Origin: a virus
DNA: 37,761 nucleotides
Direction: 5' to 3' (one strand)
IMG/VR virus record: IMGVR_UViG_3300027648_000001
Span: 64,001-101,761 of that record
Positions 7,856 to 34,229 of this stretch are shown here, piece by piece. The notes under the pieces were generated by a model, which was not told the DNA's origin, did not search any database, and worked only from the letters and a program-made list of their open reading frames with translations. How positions within the stretch are numbered: the first letter of the stretch is position 1; every line of letters begins with the position of its first letter. A program made the position numbers and the translations under genes.

Positions 7856-10050
7856 TGAGCGAGGACCAGGACACCCTAACAGTCGATCCTTCCAAGGTTA
7901 AGCTCGTATCTAAGGCTAAGCCTACGCTGATGTCTGCCTCTCCTGATAAGAAATCAGGAAGTCCCAATTGGGACAGTGTGGACCCATCCAAAGTCAAGCT
8001 TGTTCAGCGTAAACCAGAACCGCTTTCTGCTCCCGAACGCTTTGCCAGTAGCTACACTGAATCGTTTGGCCTGCCCGCTTATATTACTAAGTGGCCCCAA
8101 GCACTGAAGGACCTAACCGAAGGTCCGTTAGGGAAGGCTGATCCGACTGGCGGTGCGCTGAATGCCGCGTACAACGTTGGCAAAGGTGCAATCCAAGCTT
8201 CTGGTCAAGCTGCACAAGTTGGCCTTGACCGCATGAAACAGCCAGGCTGGGTTAATAAGCTGGCAGGTGGAACGGAATACCTTATAAGTGGGATACCGAT
8301 TCTTGGCCCCTCTGTGGTTAGATCGCAGGAGCAATTTGGTAGGGGCGACTATGCTGGCGGCCTTGGAACCATGACCGGTGTAGCCACACAAATTCTCATG
8401 GGCGACCCGGCGTTCAAAGAAAAACTCGCCGGGGCACCCGCCGCACTGGCAGAAAAAGTAAAATCTATCGTTCGTACAAAAACGAATATCGGTGACGCTG
8501 CCGTTCAGGATGCCCATGCCGCACAGACGGCCAAGAACACAGAGCTTACATCCGAACATCAAGAAGCCGTTAATAAGTGGGCCAAAGAAACACTGAAGGC
8601 TCAAGCTAAACATGAAACGAAAGTGCTTGAAATCATCAATAACAATAAAGATGAAACCCTGGAAGGTTATCTAAAAACGGCCGACGAACTAAAGAAACTT
8701 AACGAGAAACATGCCAAAAAAGTGGCAGAAATGACTCAAGGCCATGCTGAAAAATTAGAACAGGTCCGGAGTAAAAACGCTGAAGCTAAATCTTCCTACG
8801 AAATGGGAAAAGCGGCAACTAAGGCTGCTGGCGAGCAGAGTCAACAGATTTCAGAAAAGCTCCCAGCGGTTCGCGATAGTGCCCTGAAAGCCGCTAAGGA
8901 AGCATATCCAAAGGTCGAGGGCAGCGCTGACGCCGGAGAAGTGTACTCCGACCTCCAAAAATCGCTCGATAGTAAGCTGAAGGGCACTGATAAAGCGCCG
9001 TCTTCGCTAAAGAGCGTGATGGCAGAAATTCAGCCAAAAGAAGGTGAAGGCGAATTCCCGCAAGTAATGGGAGAAAAGCCCGGCCCGGAGTTAGCGGCAA
9101 AGCTGAAAGAGCAGGGCGTTCCTGGGTTTGGTGAAGCTGGTGCTGGCGAGAAGTTAACTTTCGACAAACTCCATGGTTATTACAGCGAAATCGGCCGCCA
9201 GTTGTACGACCGCGACCTACCGGGCGATGAAGCCGCCGCACTGAAGGATGCTCGTGGAAAGATACTTGCCCAGATGGAAAAGTTAGCTAAAGCCGAAGGC
9301 AAGCTAGAGCAATTCCAGGCCGCGCAAAGAAAGTGGATGGAACTGGAAAACACGTTTTATAACACCGCCTCTTCAGCGAAGGGCGGTTCACCCATTGCAC
9401 GAGCATTACAGGCCCGCGATCCCATCACCGGCAAACTGCGTCCGGATTATGTTCAGCAAATTCTGGCTGAACCGAAATCTAATAAGTTGGCCGCTGAACT
9501 ATTGTCACGCTACGGAGAACACGGCGCACCGGTAGCAGAAGTTGGCAGACTACGCAGCGCCACAGATATAGCTAAAGAGGCACCAAAGAAACTTCAACTA
9601 ACCCCGGAGCCGGAATCTCCAGAGTTGCCAGAAAAACCCGAAGCGCCGGAATTTACGCCGCCACCCCTGGACGCGGAAAAAGCTCCGAACGCTCCGGAGT
9701 TAAAACCAAGACCAGAAGCTCCAGAGATAGAAACGTTCGATGCGGAAAAATATCGCCTAGAGCAATTGAAAAAGTTTGCCGAGAGGATGGGTAAGACGTC
9801 ACCATGGGCGCTCGCTTCTTGGGGTATGGGTATTGCAGAAATGTTTATGGGCCAGTTACCGTATGCTTGGATCTATCCAGGATCGAGAGAGTTAATTGCT
9901 GGGGCACTTCGAAATCCAAGGATAGCAAATTGGCTGGCAGAAGGACGTATTTATGGAACCCTTCCGGAAGAAGGTCGCTCGCCTACAGTTTCACCTCTAA
10001 CGCATAGACCACTTAGTCCCACGCCAGAGAAGTCCGACGATTCGCAATAA
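7855..10050 (+). CDS. Large coiled-coil ejection-like virion protein
   Basis: 731 residues. The N-terminus contains the octamer DPSKVKLV twice (about residues 11 and 43). Residues about 215-340 are long Lys/Glu/Ala coiled coil, residues 570-640 are Pro/Glu-rich, and a late aromatic hydrophobic stretch (WALASWGMGIAEMFMGQLPY) may insert in a membrane. This layout suits a phage protein that enters the cell with the DNA. The start overlaps the previous stop as TAATG. A perfect palindrome copy lies at 7961, inside the codons for SPNWD. Confidence 0.5.
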   Translation: MSEDQDTLTVDPSKVKLVSKAKPTLMSASPDKKSGSPNWDSVDPSKVKLVQRKPEPLSAPERFASSYTESFGLPAYITKWPQALKDLTEGPLGKADPTGGALNAAYNVGKGAIQASGQAAQVGLDRMKQPGWVNKLAGGTEYLISGIPILGPSVVRSQEQFGRGDYAGGLGTMTGVATQILMGDPAFKEKLAGAPAALAEKVKSIVRTKTNIGDAAVQDAHAAQTAKNTELTSEHQEAVNKWAKETLKAQAKHETKVLEIINNNKDETLEGYLKTADELKKLNEKHAKKVAEMTQGHAEKLEQVRSKNAEAKSSYEMGKAATKAAGEQSQQISEKLPAVRDSALKAAKEAYPKVEGSADAGEVYSDLQKSLDSKLKGTDKAPSSLKSVMAEIQPKEGEGEFPQVMGEKPGPELAAKLKEQGVPGFGEAGAGEKLTFDKLHGYYSEIGRQLYDRDLPGDEAAALKDARGKILAQMEKLAKAEGKLEQFQAAQRKWMELENTFYNTASSAKGGSPIARALQARDPITGKLRPDYVQQILAEPKSNKLAAELLSRYGEHGAPVAEVGRLRSATDIAKEAPKKLQLTPEPESPELPEKPEAPEFTPPPLDAEKAPNAPELKPRPEAPEIETFDAEKYRLEQLKKFAERMGKTSPWALASWGMGIAEMFMGQLPYAWIYPGSRELIAGALRNPRIANWLAEGRIYGTLPEEGRSPTVSPLTHRPLSPTPEKSDDSQ
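7961..7974. repeat. Palindrome copy, perfect
   Basis: GTCCCAATTGGGAC, inside the large ejection-like gene. Confidence 0.85.
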
Positions 10051-17254: not shown

Positions 17255-17740
17255 ATGTATTTCTACGAAGCGATAGCGCTTGGCAGGATGATATTGAAAC
17301 CAAAGTTCGGGTACTTTAACGACCGCCAAGGTAACGGTTGTGCTCTTGGAATGGCCGAAGTAGCACTTGGGTACAGCCTGATTCAAAGAGAACTTTTGGA
17401 CGCTACGTATCCGTGGCTCCGTAAAACCGCCGTCCCTCTGCCTTGCCAGTGCGATTCAAGAAGAGGATTTGGTAGTAGTAGACTTTCAGCGGATATCGTG
17501 GTAGCACATATTTTCGACTATCACGTGGTATTAGTAGCGGTAGATCCAAAATGGACTATGGAAGAGCTTATCGATTGGGTAAAACAAATTGACCCAACGA
17601 TTGCTCTTGACTCTCCACAAAAAGAGATTAAATTAACTGCAAACGGAGAGCCGGATGCCGGAAAAGTTTGCACTGATACCGGACGCACCGATTCTGTACA
17701 AGTCTTGGTCGGGGTTTCCAGTCCAGAAATTCAGTTATAG
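17255..17740 (+). CDS. Conserved phage hypothetical with GCALG and Cys-pair motifs
   Basis: 161 residues. The N-terminal part reads FYEAIALGRMILKPKFGYF and GCALGMAEVALG, then PCQCD, then IVVAHIFDYHV and WTMEELIDWVKQIDP. I recognise this as a phage/bacterial hypothetical family that ends at about the Asp-Pro; the following 45 residues run over the next gene and may be filler. The ribosome site GGGAGGGG is close to the ATG. No enzymatic function is assigned. Confidence 0.65.
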   Translation: MYFYEAIALGRMILKPKFGYFNDRQGNGCALGMAEVALGYSLIQRELLDATYPWLRKTAVPLPCQCDSRRGFGSSRLSADIVVAHIFDYHVVLVAVDPKWTMEELIDWVKQIDPTIALDSPQKEIKLTANGEPDAGKVCTDTGRTDSVQVLVGVSSPEIQL

Positions 17741-18551
17741 CATTGCTAAAGACGTTTCATTTTGTGGTCGCTACACAAAGCTTAGCCGGTTTCAGGGCCT
17801 TGCCGCGATTCAAGTTTCGGCGGCCCTGAAATTCGGCATCTGCATCGAAGAATCCATCCGGTCGCATTATCTCCTGGGGACGGATTTAATAGAGCATTTC
17901 GTGCGTAGCTGGGAACCGTTCCAAGAAGTTCCCATGAAGTACAGCAAGAACGATAAAGACTGGGCCAGCCTAAACGCTACCGGGAAGAAAATTATGGTTC
18001 TGTTTGAGCAGGAAAAGGATGCGCTGCCGATCCTGAACCCGGAATTCAATGTAACTCTGCCACGCAAACCCGAACAGATTTGGTATAAAGGTACCCGCCT
18101 AGAATTCCTTGCCGATTTAATCTCCCACTGGTTCGATGGGGAGATTCTCATAGATATCAAAACTGCTGGACAGTCCTATCCGGAGAAGCCGGAAACGGTA
18201 GGCTATGCCGGTTTAGATCCCCAGCTATTGACCGGCGCTTTAGTGTCTGGCATTCGCCGCGTTGCCTTCTTGGTGCTGGTAAAGACGCGCGAGCCAAAGA
18301 TTCAGTTCCACATGGGGACAATCACCGACGCCAACCTAGAAGAAATCGATGAATGGTTAATGGAACAGTACGACCGGCTGATTGAGCGCCGGTTGCCTAT
18401 GCGCACAGGATTCCGGTTCCCGGATAACCACTGCACGCAATGCTCCTACCTTCAGCTTTGCCTTGGCAAAGATAACGCCATGGAAACCCTGTACCAGAAA
18501 TCGTCTAATGAAACTGATAATGTAATAGAGTCTCTGGATATAGAACAATGA
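17655..18551 (+). CDS. Cas4/RecB-like PD-(D/E)XK exonuclease with Fe-S cysteines
   Basis: 298 residues. SFCGRYTKLSR near residue 36 is the N-terminal Cys of the cluster. LEFLADLISHWFDGEILIDI then KTAG supplies Asp...Asp-x-Lys of the PD-(D/E)XK core (about 150-175). QLLTGALVSG is the nuclease helix, and NHCTQCSYLQLC near 260 gives three more Cys. Four Cys framing the core is the pattern of Cas4/AddB-type iron-sulfur nucleases. The start is set by GGAG before ATG 17655, with an 86-nt overlap with the previous gene. Likely resects ends for the annealing protein. Confidence 0.75.
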   Translation: MPEKFALIPDAPILYKSWSGFPVQKFSYSIAKDVSFCGRYTKLSRFQGLAAIQVSAALKFGICIEESIRSHYLLGTDLIEHFVRSWEPFQEVPMKYSKNDKDWASLNATGKKIMVLFEQEKDALPILNPEFNVTLPRKPEQIWYKGTRLEFLADLISHWFDGEILIDIKTAGQSYPEKPETVGYAGLDPQLLTGALVSGIRRVAFLVLVKTREPKIQFHMGTITDANLEEIDEWLMEQYDRLIERRLPMRTGFRFPDNHCTQCSYLQLCLGKDNAMETLYQKSSNETDNVIESLDIEQ

Positions 18552-28235: not shown

Positions 28236-28641
28236 TTCCTGCTGGCGGCCCAGTTTTTTGTTCCTGCTTAGGCGGTTCAAGCTCGTATTTGGCTGTAGTA
28301 GGATTCACGATCCAAACTTTACCGTCCACCGTAATTTTTTTGGCGTTGGCCATATCCTTTAGCTTATTGATCTTGTCTGCGTTTTCATTGGTCAATTTAA
28401 CGTAATTCGGATCGTTGTGCATGGCATCATCGTATTGTTTTTTAATCCCCTGCACCTGAGAATCGTTCTGCAAGATGCTATTGAATAACTCCAGCATGTC
28501 GGCGCGATAATTGGAATCGAGTACCGGCGCTTTCGGATCTTCTTTAGGCGGATCTTTTGGTTTTTCCTGCGAGGATAAAATCCCTAAGACGAGAAAAAAC
28601 GCAAAAATTGAAACGGTGACAATTCGAATAGCAGTTTTCAT
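28225..28641 (-). CDS. Exported or membrane-anchored protein, function unknown
   Basis: 138 residues. MKTAIRIVTVSIFAFFLVLG then ILSSQ is a signal peptide or N-terminal anchor. The rest is Lys/Asp/Pro-rich with a helical middle (ADMLELFNSILQNDSQVQGI) and ends PPAGSPK. GGGAG precedes the ATG. Its TAG stop lies within the palindrome at 28222-28235. An inner-membrane spanin-like role is conceivable but there is no outer partner. Confidence 0.6.
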   Translation of the reverse strand: MKTAIRIVTVSIFAFFLVLGILSSQEKPKDPPKEDPKAPVLDSNYRADMLELFNSILQNDSQVQGIKKQYDDAMHNDPNYVKLTNENADKINKLKDMANAKKITVDGKVWIVNPTTAKYELEPPKQEQKTGPPAGSPK

Positions 28642-28844
28642 TTTTTACTCCCTTTGGCCGCCATCTTACCACCACGCAACATCGCGTCAAGATGTAACTG
28701 AAATAGAGGATGGTTTTCTGTTATTCGTGCAGGACAAAGCGTACAGCGACCAAACAATTTTTCGTCGTCTTCTTCGTAAAATTCGACCGCTGTACGATTG
28801 CCTTTTTGGTGATTACATTCTTCCGGCTTGACTTTTTTCTTCAT
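28638..28844 (-). CDS. Small Cys/His zinc-site protein behind the repeat array
   Basis: 68 residues: KPEECNHQKGNRTAVEFYEE, then GRCTLCPARITENHPLFQLH. C-H and CxxC pairs suit a zinc site. Its ATG is 2 nt from the last GGCAGG of the 49-bp repeat array, and AGG of that block is the only Shine-Dalgarno. The array is thus its leader on the minus strand, if it is transcribed. Ends in a TAA overlap with the next gene. Confidence 0.5.
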   Translation of the reverse strand: MKKKVKPEECNHQKGNRTAVEFYEEDDEKLFGRCTLCPARITENHPLFQLHLDAMLRGGKMAAKGSKK

Positions 28845-28846
28845 TG

Positions 28847-29546
28847 CCTGCCGAGCCTAATCTAGCCGTGCCGAGCCTAACCAGACCATGCCGTACCTGC
28901 CGAACCCTACCATGCCACACCGTGCCATGCCTGACCGAACCACACCTGCCCTGCCAGACCCTGCCATGCCGTGCCTCGCCAGGCCGCGCCATAACGTGCC
29001 AAGCCCGACCTGCCAAGCCACGCCTAGCCAAGCCACGCCGAGCCTTACCAGACCATGCCTGCCGTGCCTGGCCTGGCCTGACCCTGCCATGCCGTGCCTT
29101 GCCTCACCTGCCAGACCTAGCCCGACCCCGCCAAGCCGCGCCTCGCCTGACCAAGCCTTACCGTACCTGCCACGCCACGCCTAGTCATGCCTAGCCGCAC
29201 CAAGCCGGACCTCACCGTACCTGCCTTGCCTCTCCGCAACGTGCCGGAACCTGCTGAGCCACACCACACCTGCCGTACCAAGCCGTAACGAGCTGAACCG
29301 CACCATACCGTGCCTTCCTGCCAAACCAAGCCTTGCCTTGCCATACCGAGCCTTGCCGCGCCAGACCCGAACGCGCTTTACCCTGCCAAGCCTGCCGTAA
29401 CTAGCCATGCCAGAACACGCCGAGCCGAGCCTTGACGTGCCTGCCCGACCTCGCCATGCGCGGCCCCACCTGCCCCGCTCTACCTCACCGCACCTTGCCG
29501 AGCCGAGCCTAGCGAAAACGTGCGCTGCCTGCCAAGCCAAGCGCGG
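28847..29546. repeat. Modular array: CCTG + n x CCNNR, modal unit 49 bp
   Basis: On the plus strand CC recurs every 5 nt, almost always as CCNNR (purine last). At intervals a 4-nt module CCTG resets the register, making CCTGCC. CCTGCC starts at 28847, 28896, 28945, 29009, 29058, 29107, 29166, 29220, 29269, 29317, 29391, 29440, 29469 and 29528. Spacings are 49, 49, 64, 49, 49, 59, 54, 49, 48, 74, 49, 29 and 59: with one exception (48) they are 4 + 5n, with n=9 in six of thirteen. The NNR triplets vary freely. 49 is not a multiple of 3, so it is not coding. Flanked by minus-strand genes on both sides. Confidence 0.9.
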
Positions 29547-29552
29547 CCAGTT

Positions 29553-30239
29553 TTAAATAACGTGATTCCATGTCTTTCTTTTTACGACCCTACCAACGGT
29601 GGATTTTGTAATTCTAAATCGTACCGCTATTTCTGACAGAGTTAGCCCATCCACACTAAGCTTTCTAATCTCCCGAACAGAAGCATCGGTCAGCTTGGCA
29701 TGTGTATTACTTTCACCAAGATGAATTGGTGGATTCGTTCTGTTTTCCTTCTGCCAGTACCTATATGGACGCCTATTGTTCATTTGATCGGATCGAGAGG
29801 CCCACTTACAGTTGCCCGGCTCGTAATTGCCGTTGTTATCCTCCCTTTCAATGCTAAAGCCAAGCGGTCTAGGTCCCATATCTTTCATAAAGACCTCAAA
29901 ATCTTCCCACTTGGGACAAACTGTAATTCCTCGTCCGCCATAGTGCTTCCACGCAGTATTTTTAGGATTCGAGCAACGATCTTTCATACCTAGCCATACA
30001 TGATATTCTGGGATGTACCGCATCCCATGTTTTCGTGCTCGAATCCTAGTAACTTCACGGCGCAAGCATCCACAGCTATTGGTTTGGCCCCAACGAAGCC
30101 GCCCTCCGCTAATGGACAGCTTATTGCCGCAATCGCAAATGCAATTCCAATACGTTCTGCCGTTTCTTACCTTATCGAAACTACTTACTAGCCAGCGACC
30201 GAATCTTTTTCCCCTCAATTCCAGTCTTGGCGGCACCAT
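29553..30239 (-). CDS. HNH/AP2-type homing endonuclease-like protein with C-terminal HTH
   Basis: 228 residues from ATG 30239 (GGAGGGCA upstream; an earlier ATG would widen the overlap with the previous gene). N-terminal zinc part: GKRFGRWLVSS...WNCICDCGNK...SCGCLRRE. Middle: WLGMKDRCSNP, HYGGRGITVCPKWEDFEVFM and NNGNYEPGNCKWASRSDQMN, the core of a phage HNH/AP2 homing family. C-terminal HTH: VREIRKLSVDGLTLSEIAVR...STVGRVVKRKTW. The gene is mobile in many phages. A palindrome-like site lies inside at 29904. It borders the repeat array by 3-7 nt. Confidence 0.8.
   Translation of the reverse strand: MVPPRLELRGKRFGRWLVSSFDKVRNGRTYWNCICDCGNKLSISGGRLRWGQTNSCGCLRREVTRIRARKHGMRYIPEYHVWLGMKDRCSNPKNTAWKHYGGRGITVCPKWEDFEVFMKDMGPRPLGFSIEREDNNGNYEPGNCKWASRSDQMNNRRPYRYWQKENRTNPPIHLGESNTHAKLTDASVREIRKLSVDGLTLSEIAVRFRITKSTVGRVVKRKTWNHVI
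29904..29917. repeat. Palindrome copy, two mismatches
   Basis: TTCCCACTTGGGAC, inside the HNH/AP2-type gene. Confidence 0.5.
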
Positions 30240-30462
30240 TGCCCTCCACGCTAATACCGAATTGTTTTCTTTTGTATTCGATATGTTGCCGTACACTTTC
30301 TACGGAAACAATCTCGGAAGAAAACATCGCCAGTGTAGCACGAGGATTGGAAATATCGTTGAACAGAATTATGTTACCGCCCGGCCCAAAGTTTTCCTGA
30401 ACGCCGAAAAATTCGCCGCCCGCTTCGATAAGCATCAACTTAATTGGAGTCAGATCGTTCAT
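30181..30462 (-). CDS. Small hypothetical protein
   Basis: 93 residues. IKLMLIEAGGEFFGVQENFG, then NIILFNDISNPRATLAMFSS, then a helix (ESVRQHIEYKRKQFGI) and a basic end. Strand-rich first half; no family recognised. No clear ribosome site at ATG 30462. The HNH gene overlaps its last 59 nt, perhaps a mark of the mobile gene's insertion. Confidence 0.5.
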   Translation of the reverse strand: MNDLTPIKLMLIEAGGEFFGVQENFGPGGNIILFNDISNPRATLAMFSSEIVSVESVRQHIEYKRKQFGISVEGNGAAKTGIEGKKIRSLASK

Positions 30463-31312: not shown

Positions 31313-31807
31313 CTACTCTTCTTCTTGCTCTGTGCCTGGCCGGTCGTAGAAGTTGCGTACGCCAGTTGTTAGATGACGGATTACTTTTACGACTGGTTTT
31401 TTGGGTTTATCGCCGCTGCCGTCGCTATGTTCGCCACCGCCACCGCGACCAATCCTTCTGGTAGCCGGAACTTTGCTCAATTGGTAGGTGCCTGGCTCAA
31501 AACTATGGCTGCGGTCAAAAACTACGACTTCTTTGCTCAGGCTCGGAGGCACGATATAGCGGGTGGCTACTGAGCCTCGAATCAAATAAGCTTTGCTCAG
31601 CGAAATGACCGCTCCGTCCAAGCCTAGTTCACGCTTGCAGGCGCGTGCCATTGCACAGTCGCTTGGATGTTTTGGTGTGCCCCTTCTGTTGTCACGTGCG
31701 CGGACTTCAACTGTCAATGACTCGGTTGCGTCCGTGATCGTTGTGACCTTCGGGAAAAGCTTCTGGATTTTCGTTAAATGGGCCTTGTGTACTTTTGGTT
31801 TTTCCAT
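31313..31807 (-). CDS. Conserved phage hypothetical protein
   Basis: 164 residues. Residues 10-110 read ITDATESLTVEVRARDNRRG, then DCAMARACKRELGLDGAVIS and YIVPPSLSKEVVVFDRSHSF, a family seen in phages of soil bacteria; the rest is a Gly/Lys-rich disordered tail ending in GTEQEEE. GGAGAAAACA precedes the ATG, and the isolated 49-bp repeat unit stands 19 nt before it. Function unknown. Confidence 0.6.
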   Translation of the reverse strand: MEKPKVHKAHLTKIQKLFPKVTTITDATESLTVEVRARDNRRGTPKHPSDCAMARACKRELGLDGAVISLSKAYLIRGSVATRYIVPPSLSKEVVVFDRSHSFEPGTYQLSKVPATRRIGRGGGGEHSDGSGDKPKKPVVKVIRHLTTGVRNFYDRPGTEQEEE

Positions 31808-31826: not shown

Positions 31827-31881
31827 CCTGCCGCACCAAGCCCCGCCAGAACTTACCTCGCCGGGCCGAGCCGTACCTGCC
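31827..31881. repeat. Solitary 49-bp unit of the CCTG(CCNNR)9 repeat
   Basis: CCTGCC starts at 31827 and 31876, exactly 49 bp apart. Between lie nine pentamers, eight of them CCNNR and one (ACTTA) variant. It lies in the 77-bp gap upstream of the minus gene starting at 31807, 2.3 kb from the main array. This isolated copy shows the 49-bp module is a unit in its own right. Confidence 0.85.
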
Positions 31882-33814: not shown

Positions 33815-34059
33815 TTTCCTCCCTTCTCGTTCGCTTCGCGCAGGCGCTTGAGCATGTGCAGCTTTTCCTCTTCGAGTTTGTTCAGATCGATTTCGAAGTA
33901 TCGGGCCAGCCACTCATTGAGCGAACGTCTGTGCCATTTGGCTGGCATGTGAACGCCTTCTGATTCCAGCCAGGTTATGAATTCGCCGACTAATTCGCTT
34001 TTGTCCCTTATTTTTGAAAGCTTCTCATGCTCGGCGTAAACGATTTCCCTTTCAGTCAT
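33811..34059 (-). CDS. Small conserved hypothetical protein
   Basis: 82 residues from ATG 34059, which overlaps the preceding stop (ATGA). TEREIVYAEHEKLSKIRDKS, then GEFITWLESEGVHMPAKWHR and a coiled-coil end: a family seen in phages beginning 'E..I...HE...I...S...G.F..WL'. Unknown function. An ATG 18 nt upstream has no better ribosome site. Confidence 0.6.
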   Translation of the reverse strand: MTEREIVYAEHEKLSKIRDKSELVGEFITWLESEGVHMPAKWHRRSLNEWLARYFEIDLNKLEEEKLHMLKRLREANEKGGK

Positions 34060-34229
34060 ATTGATGATTCCAGCCATTTGCTGTAACGGCGGAATGCTTC
34101 TTTGGAGCGAAAGAAGTTGTAAATCAATGGCGTTAGCCCTCGCAAGGTTAAAGTCATCGTGCTAGTCATTTTGCCGGTCACCACCTTGCGCGGCTTAGGA
34201 TGCTTCTTTGGTCTTTTCTTTTTGGACAT
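34056..34229 (-). CDS. 57-residue basic protein
   Basis: Reads MSKKKRPKKHPKPRKVVTGK, then MTSTMTLTLRGLTPLIYNFF and RSKEAFRRYSKWLESSI. Highly basic N-terminus, then a beta/helix body. AAAGGC precedes the ATG. It may bind nucleic acid. No family recognised. Confidence 0.5.
   Translation of the reverse strand: MSKKKRPKKHPKPRKVVTGKMTSTMTLTLRGLTPLIYNFFRSKEAFRRYSKWLESSI

Follow-up and report, generated by a model that had tools for sequence, protein, structure and literature searches.

The window analysed here is the 37,761-nt stretch from position 64,001 to position 101,761 of the virus record IMGVR_UViG_3300027648_000001, a contig of 101,761 bp that comes without a completeness estimate and carries 31 tRNA genes, all of them in one piece of the record (L176). 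It contains an intergenic array that reads, on the minus strand and in the direction of the flanking genes, as tandem YNNGG pentamers divided by the tetranucleotide CAGG (Table 1). Most of the blocks between two CAGGs hold 8-14 pentamers, a few are shorter, and some units have decayed and lack the GG. The HNH endonuclease encoded directly upstream is presumably of the homing type. Further units of the same kind are present elsewhere in the record: a solo guide, the sense strand of which reads TACGG, CTCGG, CCCGG, CGAGG, TAAGT, TCTGG, CGGGG, CTTGG and TGCGG, and a small array in the tRNA cluster, both largely intact.

Table 1. Features of the array locus and related sequences of the same record (window coordinates unless stated otherwise)
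Feature	Position	Strand	Details
Main array, probable VIPR-type guide RNAs	28847..29550	-	(YNNGG)n divided by CAGG; about 13 blocks
CAGG separators (CCTG on the plus strand)	28847..29531	-	n = 14; register breaks
68-aa ORF	28638..28844	-	in the sense direction, start 3 nt past the end of the array; no family
HNH endonuclease gene	29553..30296	-	phrog_374, E = 3.8e-58; abuts the main array, directly upstream in the sense direction
Solo guide	31827..31881	-	9 pentamers with CAGG at either end; CAGG-to-CAGG spacing exactly 49 nt
Small CAGG-bounded array, outside the window	record about 42.76-42.88 kb (L176 about 8755-8880)	tRNA direction	between tRNA-Thr(ggt) and tRNA-Lys(ctt)
57-codon ORF resembling the Vipr N-terminus only	34056..34229	-	GLTPLIYNFFRSKEA; hmmsearch with family A in all six window frames, E about 0.0015 at model positions 19-57
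phrog_1706 match, 'CRISPR/Cas system associated'	17655-18551	+	weak PD-(D/E)XK nuclease match

On the plus strand, the whole array shows a CC every 5 nt, with the 4-nt CCTG resetting the register. The CCTG units start at 28847, 28896, 28945, 29009, 29058, 29107, 29166, 29220, 29269, 29317, 29391, 29440, 29469 and 29528, and the gaps between these 14 units are, in order, 49, 49, 64, 49, 49, 59, 54, 49, 48, 74, 49, 29 and 59. All 13 agree exactly with the gaps listed in a preliminary description of this DNA, which also rightly omitted four further CCTGCC strings (at 28950, 28960, 29083 and 29382), these being CCCTG pentamers in register and not separators. At 5 nt, the autocorrelation proposed there as a check was far above every shuffle. 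The 704 bases have 99 CC pairs at this distance, whereas 500 dinucleotide shuffles of them averaged 27.9 +/- 4.9 (maximum 43); at 49 nt the numbers are 86 and 25.7 +/- 4.6, and the pattern (CCNNR)3CC occurs 55 times against 0.15 (maximum 2). The 49-bp quantum that had been described has no status of its own; the pentamer is the quantum, and 49 is the commonest total, produced by nine pentamers and CAGG. The noncoding nature of the region was correctly recognized: a coding repeat was rejected since several frames are open merely because the pattern contains no stops, and 49 is not a multiple of 3. The main array contains no long identical repeats, and the combination of identical palindromic repeats and unique spacers that marks a CRISPR array was not found in it. 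The earlier statement that the array is not CRISPR was correct; the system is nevertheless a CRISPR relative.

At least 120 IMG/VR stretches share the pattern, as do 44 GTDB contigs of many phyla, which answers the proposal to look for it elsewhere. The exact scan searched for the pattern around one CCTG, so that at least one CCTG of each fetched stretch is selected and the rest are not. GTDB isolates with the pattern include Aureimonas ureilytica DSM 18598, Bradyrhizobium lablabi and Mycobacterium szulgai. The 183 arrays that were parsed contain 9478 five-mers and 959 four-mers, 858 of the latter being CCTG, a share slightly inflated by the CCTG-bearing search pattern. The five-mer is nearly unconstrained at its third and fourth letters; the fifth is G in 73% and A in 20%. 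Consecutive four-mers are separated mainly by 7-12 pentamers, nine being the mode (125), with eight (112) and ten (102) close to it. In regularity, the window array stands 35th from the bottom of these 183, below their median. Two clusters of supposed proteins beside the arrays (clusters 0 and 1) turned out to be the translated repeat itself and were discarded. Relatives of the window sought via the gene at 31316-31807 were not found.

The low-complexity look of the array, of which tandem repeat finders pick up only fragments, could arise from a neutral degenerate microsatellite or from an assembly artefact. This explanation is extremely improbable: one and the same grammar, with CAGG and on one strand only, is present in independent assemblies of more than 100 contigs of unrelated phages and bacteria, among them the A. 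ureilytica isolate and Mycobacterium phage Saal. The preliminary description, which had denied a simple microsatellite, is borne out on this point, and the assembly artefact that it had regarded as a possible refutation is contradicted by independent assemblies that include isolates.

Two protein families accompany the arrays. Family A (~210 aa, RAMP/Csm3 fold) is encoded in 92 of the 153 array loci and family B (~160 aa) in 92 loci; one or both were found in 113 of the 153, on the GG strand and mostly adjacent to the array. The typical orders are A-B-array, A-array-B-array and array-A-array-B. Among the loci with neither family, 37 have less than 3 kb of DNA on one side, and three of the 153 are true exceptions, the window included. 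The converse also holds. When 80 loci were fetched by the family A protein alone, using a 20-sequence subset of its alignment, a sense GG array lay within 2.5 kb in 61 and an antisense one in none, and family B was present in 73 of the same 80. The earlier view was right in taking the minus strand as the meaningful one, read as YNNGG with CAGG as a separate unit.

Both families correspond to PHROGs of unknown function (phrog_4652 for A and phrog_15946 for B), and neither had a convincing match in Pfam or NCBIfam. A Cas7-like protein was first inferred from a glycine-rich C-terminus encoded beside the arrays, and the fold and a PDB sequence search then confirmed it. The AlphaFold model of family A (pLDDT 92.8) has its best Foldseek matches among Csm3/Cas7 subunits (E about 5e-5), and at the sequence level the family matches PDB chain 36pp, 'SUSP1 Vipr protein' (E = 3.7e-18). 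Judged by sequence and predicted fold, family A is the Vipr protein. The family is large, with at least 566 relatives confirmed in the scan. The named phages Mycobacterium phage Saal (L261), Cyanophage Cy-LDV1 (L262) and Gordonia phage UmaThurman (L263) carry CAGG-divided arrays beside vipr, annotated in all three as 'hypothetical protein'. Family B shows no sequence resemblance to the SUSP1 accessory gene, and its model resembles forkhead winged-helix DNA-binding domains only weakly. Many of the loci (L057, L132, L138, L152 and many others) lie in what we take, from recognition of the neighbouring genes, to be phage recombination modules with RecT, a YqaJ-type exonuclease, a Sak4-like ATPase and SSB. 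At another locus (L076) the array starts right beside a tRNA-like sequence.

According to a preprint dated April-June 2026 (PMC13142463), VIPR is made up of Vipr, a RAMP protein with a G-loop that phages carry, together with small accessory vap genes (vap1-6) and guide RNAs (vrRNAs) of ~100 nt that co-purify with Vipr. The vrRNAs are built of YNNGG repeats, and their NN pairs are reported to recognize double-stranded DNA, passing over one base of the target at each unit. RNP formation, DNA binding, gene repression and phage control are reported there for this system (PMC13142463), which overtakes the preliminary description's view of the array as the sign of an undescribed system. The region at 28847-29550 is very probably a tandem array of such vrRNA genes, with one CAGG-to-CAGG block per guide, because its repeat grammar is identical to the YNNGG with hypervariable NN set out in the preprint (PMC13142463). 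The same assignment follows from the association with Vipr and family B in both directions, the identity of Vipr, and the skip-1 excess and CAGG boundary described below. The array has the tandem YNNGG units with conserved GGY and hypervariable NN that characterize vrRNAs, and the 9-16 repeats per vrRNA guide are in line with the 8-14 pentamers of most window blocks and with the mode of nine over all arrays. The filament protein taking one pentamer per subunit that had been postulated earlier exists in the form of Vipr, a Cas7/Csm3-like RAMP.

The closest described systems are those of Escherichia phage SUSP1 and a Pseudomonas fulva prophage (type II; PMC13142463, PDB 36pp). They share with the window the YNNGG repeat with hypervariable NN and the phage-borne, intergenic location, and a Vipr of the same family adjoins such arrays in the surveyed loci. 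The vrRNAs of the SUSP1 and P. fulva clades have, according to the preprint, a conserved structured 3' tail, and other types vary (PMC13142463). In contrast, the guides of the window and of the surveyed loci follow one another in tandem, separated by nothing but CAGG; no structured 3' tail like that of SUSP1 was recognized, and the main array had no match in Rfam. The surveyed loci also differ from SUSP1 in their family B, and the window's record differs from both systems in lacking vipr and vap. Staggered arrays with overlapping vrRNAs are mentioned for other VIPR types (fig. S18 of PMC13142463) and may correspond to the CAGG-divided architecture seen here. The Csm3/Cas7 backbone of type III-A CRISPR has the fold of the Vipr family and likewise forms a filament on RNA with one subunit per fixed number of nucleotides. 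Unlike it, the locus has no CRISPR repeats, spacers or cas genes, the repeat implies about 5 nt per subunit instead of 6, and the guide letters are interrupted. The phrog_1706 match in the window was dropped as a CRISPR lead because of its weakness.

The guide code was examined independently. The NN strings of 916 distinct decoded blocks were compared with 1.5 Mb of fetched DNA with the arrays masked, at a cut-off of fewer than 0.01 expected chance hits. With one base skipped, 19 guides had matches, against 2, 2 and 6 with skips of 0, 2 and 3 and 2-10 in eight order-shuffled controls. In a 2.4-Mb set, which overlaps the first, 15 of 1141 guides had matches at the same cut-off with skip 1; the corresponding numbers for the other three skips were 0, 3 and 2, and four shuffled sets had 2-7. 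The excess is modest yet always falls on the published rule, which suggests that the 1-nt-skip code is favoured for this class of arrays. The earlier claim that spacing is under selection and not sequence is wrong: as the base-pairing dinucleotides of the guide, the free NN letters carry the information.

The skip-1 matches were found in the vipr genes of other phages (L046, L153, L076, L166 and L148) and in a Sak4-like ATPase (L074 and L040). From their target letters, we take two others to be a RecT-like gene (EPNTVLGHAY, L144) and a gene with a DPPY methyltransferase-like motif (DPPYN, L047). The skipped base mostly occupies codon position 3 (wobble). It appears, from these sequence matches, that VIPR and recombination genes of one phage may be targeted by the guides of another. 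In other arrays, guide-target matching drops to chance level once CAGG is crossed, at both ends of the block. Since the matches end at CAGG, this tetranucleotide bounds the guides, and 49 nt represents a nine-unit guide with its separator; these observations point to one complete guide per CAGG-to-CAGG block.

A 5-nt spacing with a fixed GG would suit any protein that takes one pentamer per subunit, and the array could accordingly bind another filament or ring protein (TRAP-like or CsrA-like) or serve as a decoy or sponge, with no guide function. TRAP, the trp RNA-binding attenuation protein, binds triplets about 5 nt apart. It resembles the present case in spacing only, being a different protein with no guide function, and it was not found here. 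The fixed genetic partner of the arrays is Vipr, their NN letters match genes of other phages by the 1-nt-skip rule above controls, and guide function of this repeat is shown biochemically in the preprint (PMC13142463). Binding of this other kind is accordingly very unlikely, and nothing in the analysis calls for either the TRAP or the G-quadruplex reading that had been put forward earlier.

For the guides of this phage, no target is established. Five window guides were scanned through IMG/VR as 18-base patterns, and three of them had no exact match there. Guide 8 matched one IMG/VR contig in nine units and failed in the last two, and it is not claimed as having a target. Guide 12 (nine units) had one 18/18 match. 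It lies in a phage contig of 202 kb, antisense to the gene of a P-loop protein, and all the skipped bases fall on third codon positions. This match is a candidate target only, because two matches in five scans are near chance. A self-target in the record was not found for ten window guides, the best expected values being 0.075 and 0.08.

No vipr was detected within 8 kb of the array or in the 101.8-kb record by PHROG, profile and single-protein searches (hmmsearch outside the window), and PHROG models, profiles and single proteins likewise found no vap or family B in the record. A complete VIPR system is thus not shown at this locus; the record may be partial, so the missing vipr is not proof of its absence. 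These absences, which place the window among the three exceptional loci, count against the guide-array interpretation, as do the lower regularity of the array, the lack of a confirmed target of its own, the small size of the skip-1 excess and the missing tail.

Some of these points would fit a former VIPR locus that has lost vipr and vap and whose array drifts without function. Besides the missing genes, the below-median regularity with several broken units is as would be expected of a decaying array, and the ORF at 34056..34229, a possible vipr remnant by its faint sequence similarity, resembles the N-terminus of Vipr. The match of this fragment is, however, weak, and the record has no completeness estimate. 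Moreover, most GG pairs and nearly all CAGGs are intact, whereas drift should soon erase a 5-nt register, and the solo and tRNA-cluster guides have also been largely preserved. Such a relic is possible but on balance unlikely. Less probable still, though worth considering, is a phage equipped with guides but with no vipr of its own. Its guides, about fifteen at three sites, would load onto the Vipr of a resident prophage or a co-infecting phage and redirect it, and CAGG would be the only signal that bounds or processes contiguous guides.

Taking the region as a vrRNA array, we infer that it is transcribed and used. Transcription of the minus strand would proceed together with the neighbouring genes. 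In a Cas7-like Vipr filament, each subunit would hold the GGY of one YNNGG, and the NN dinucleotide would pair with the target DNA; with one base of the target passed over at each unit, a guide of nine pentamers would cover about 26 bp. The complex would act as a repressor of the competitor's gene to which it binds. As the record has no complete vipr or vap of its own, the Vipr might be encoded beyond the sequenced part or supplied by another element, or else the array might be a relic.

The kind of array found here is real, widespread and already described (2026, PMC13142463), and what is unusual in this phage record is the presence of guides without a recognizable gene for the partner protein. 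VIPR is a proposed ancestor of Class 1 CRISPR with a new, interrupted guide code. The same system was reached here from raw sequence, its CAGG-delimited form is common in metagenomic phages, and the skip code was tested on our own data. Because Saal and UmaThurman are recorded on cultured hosts, this form is testable in the laboratory. The rule that one block between two CAGGs is one guide would allow guide decoding and target prediction across many viromes.
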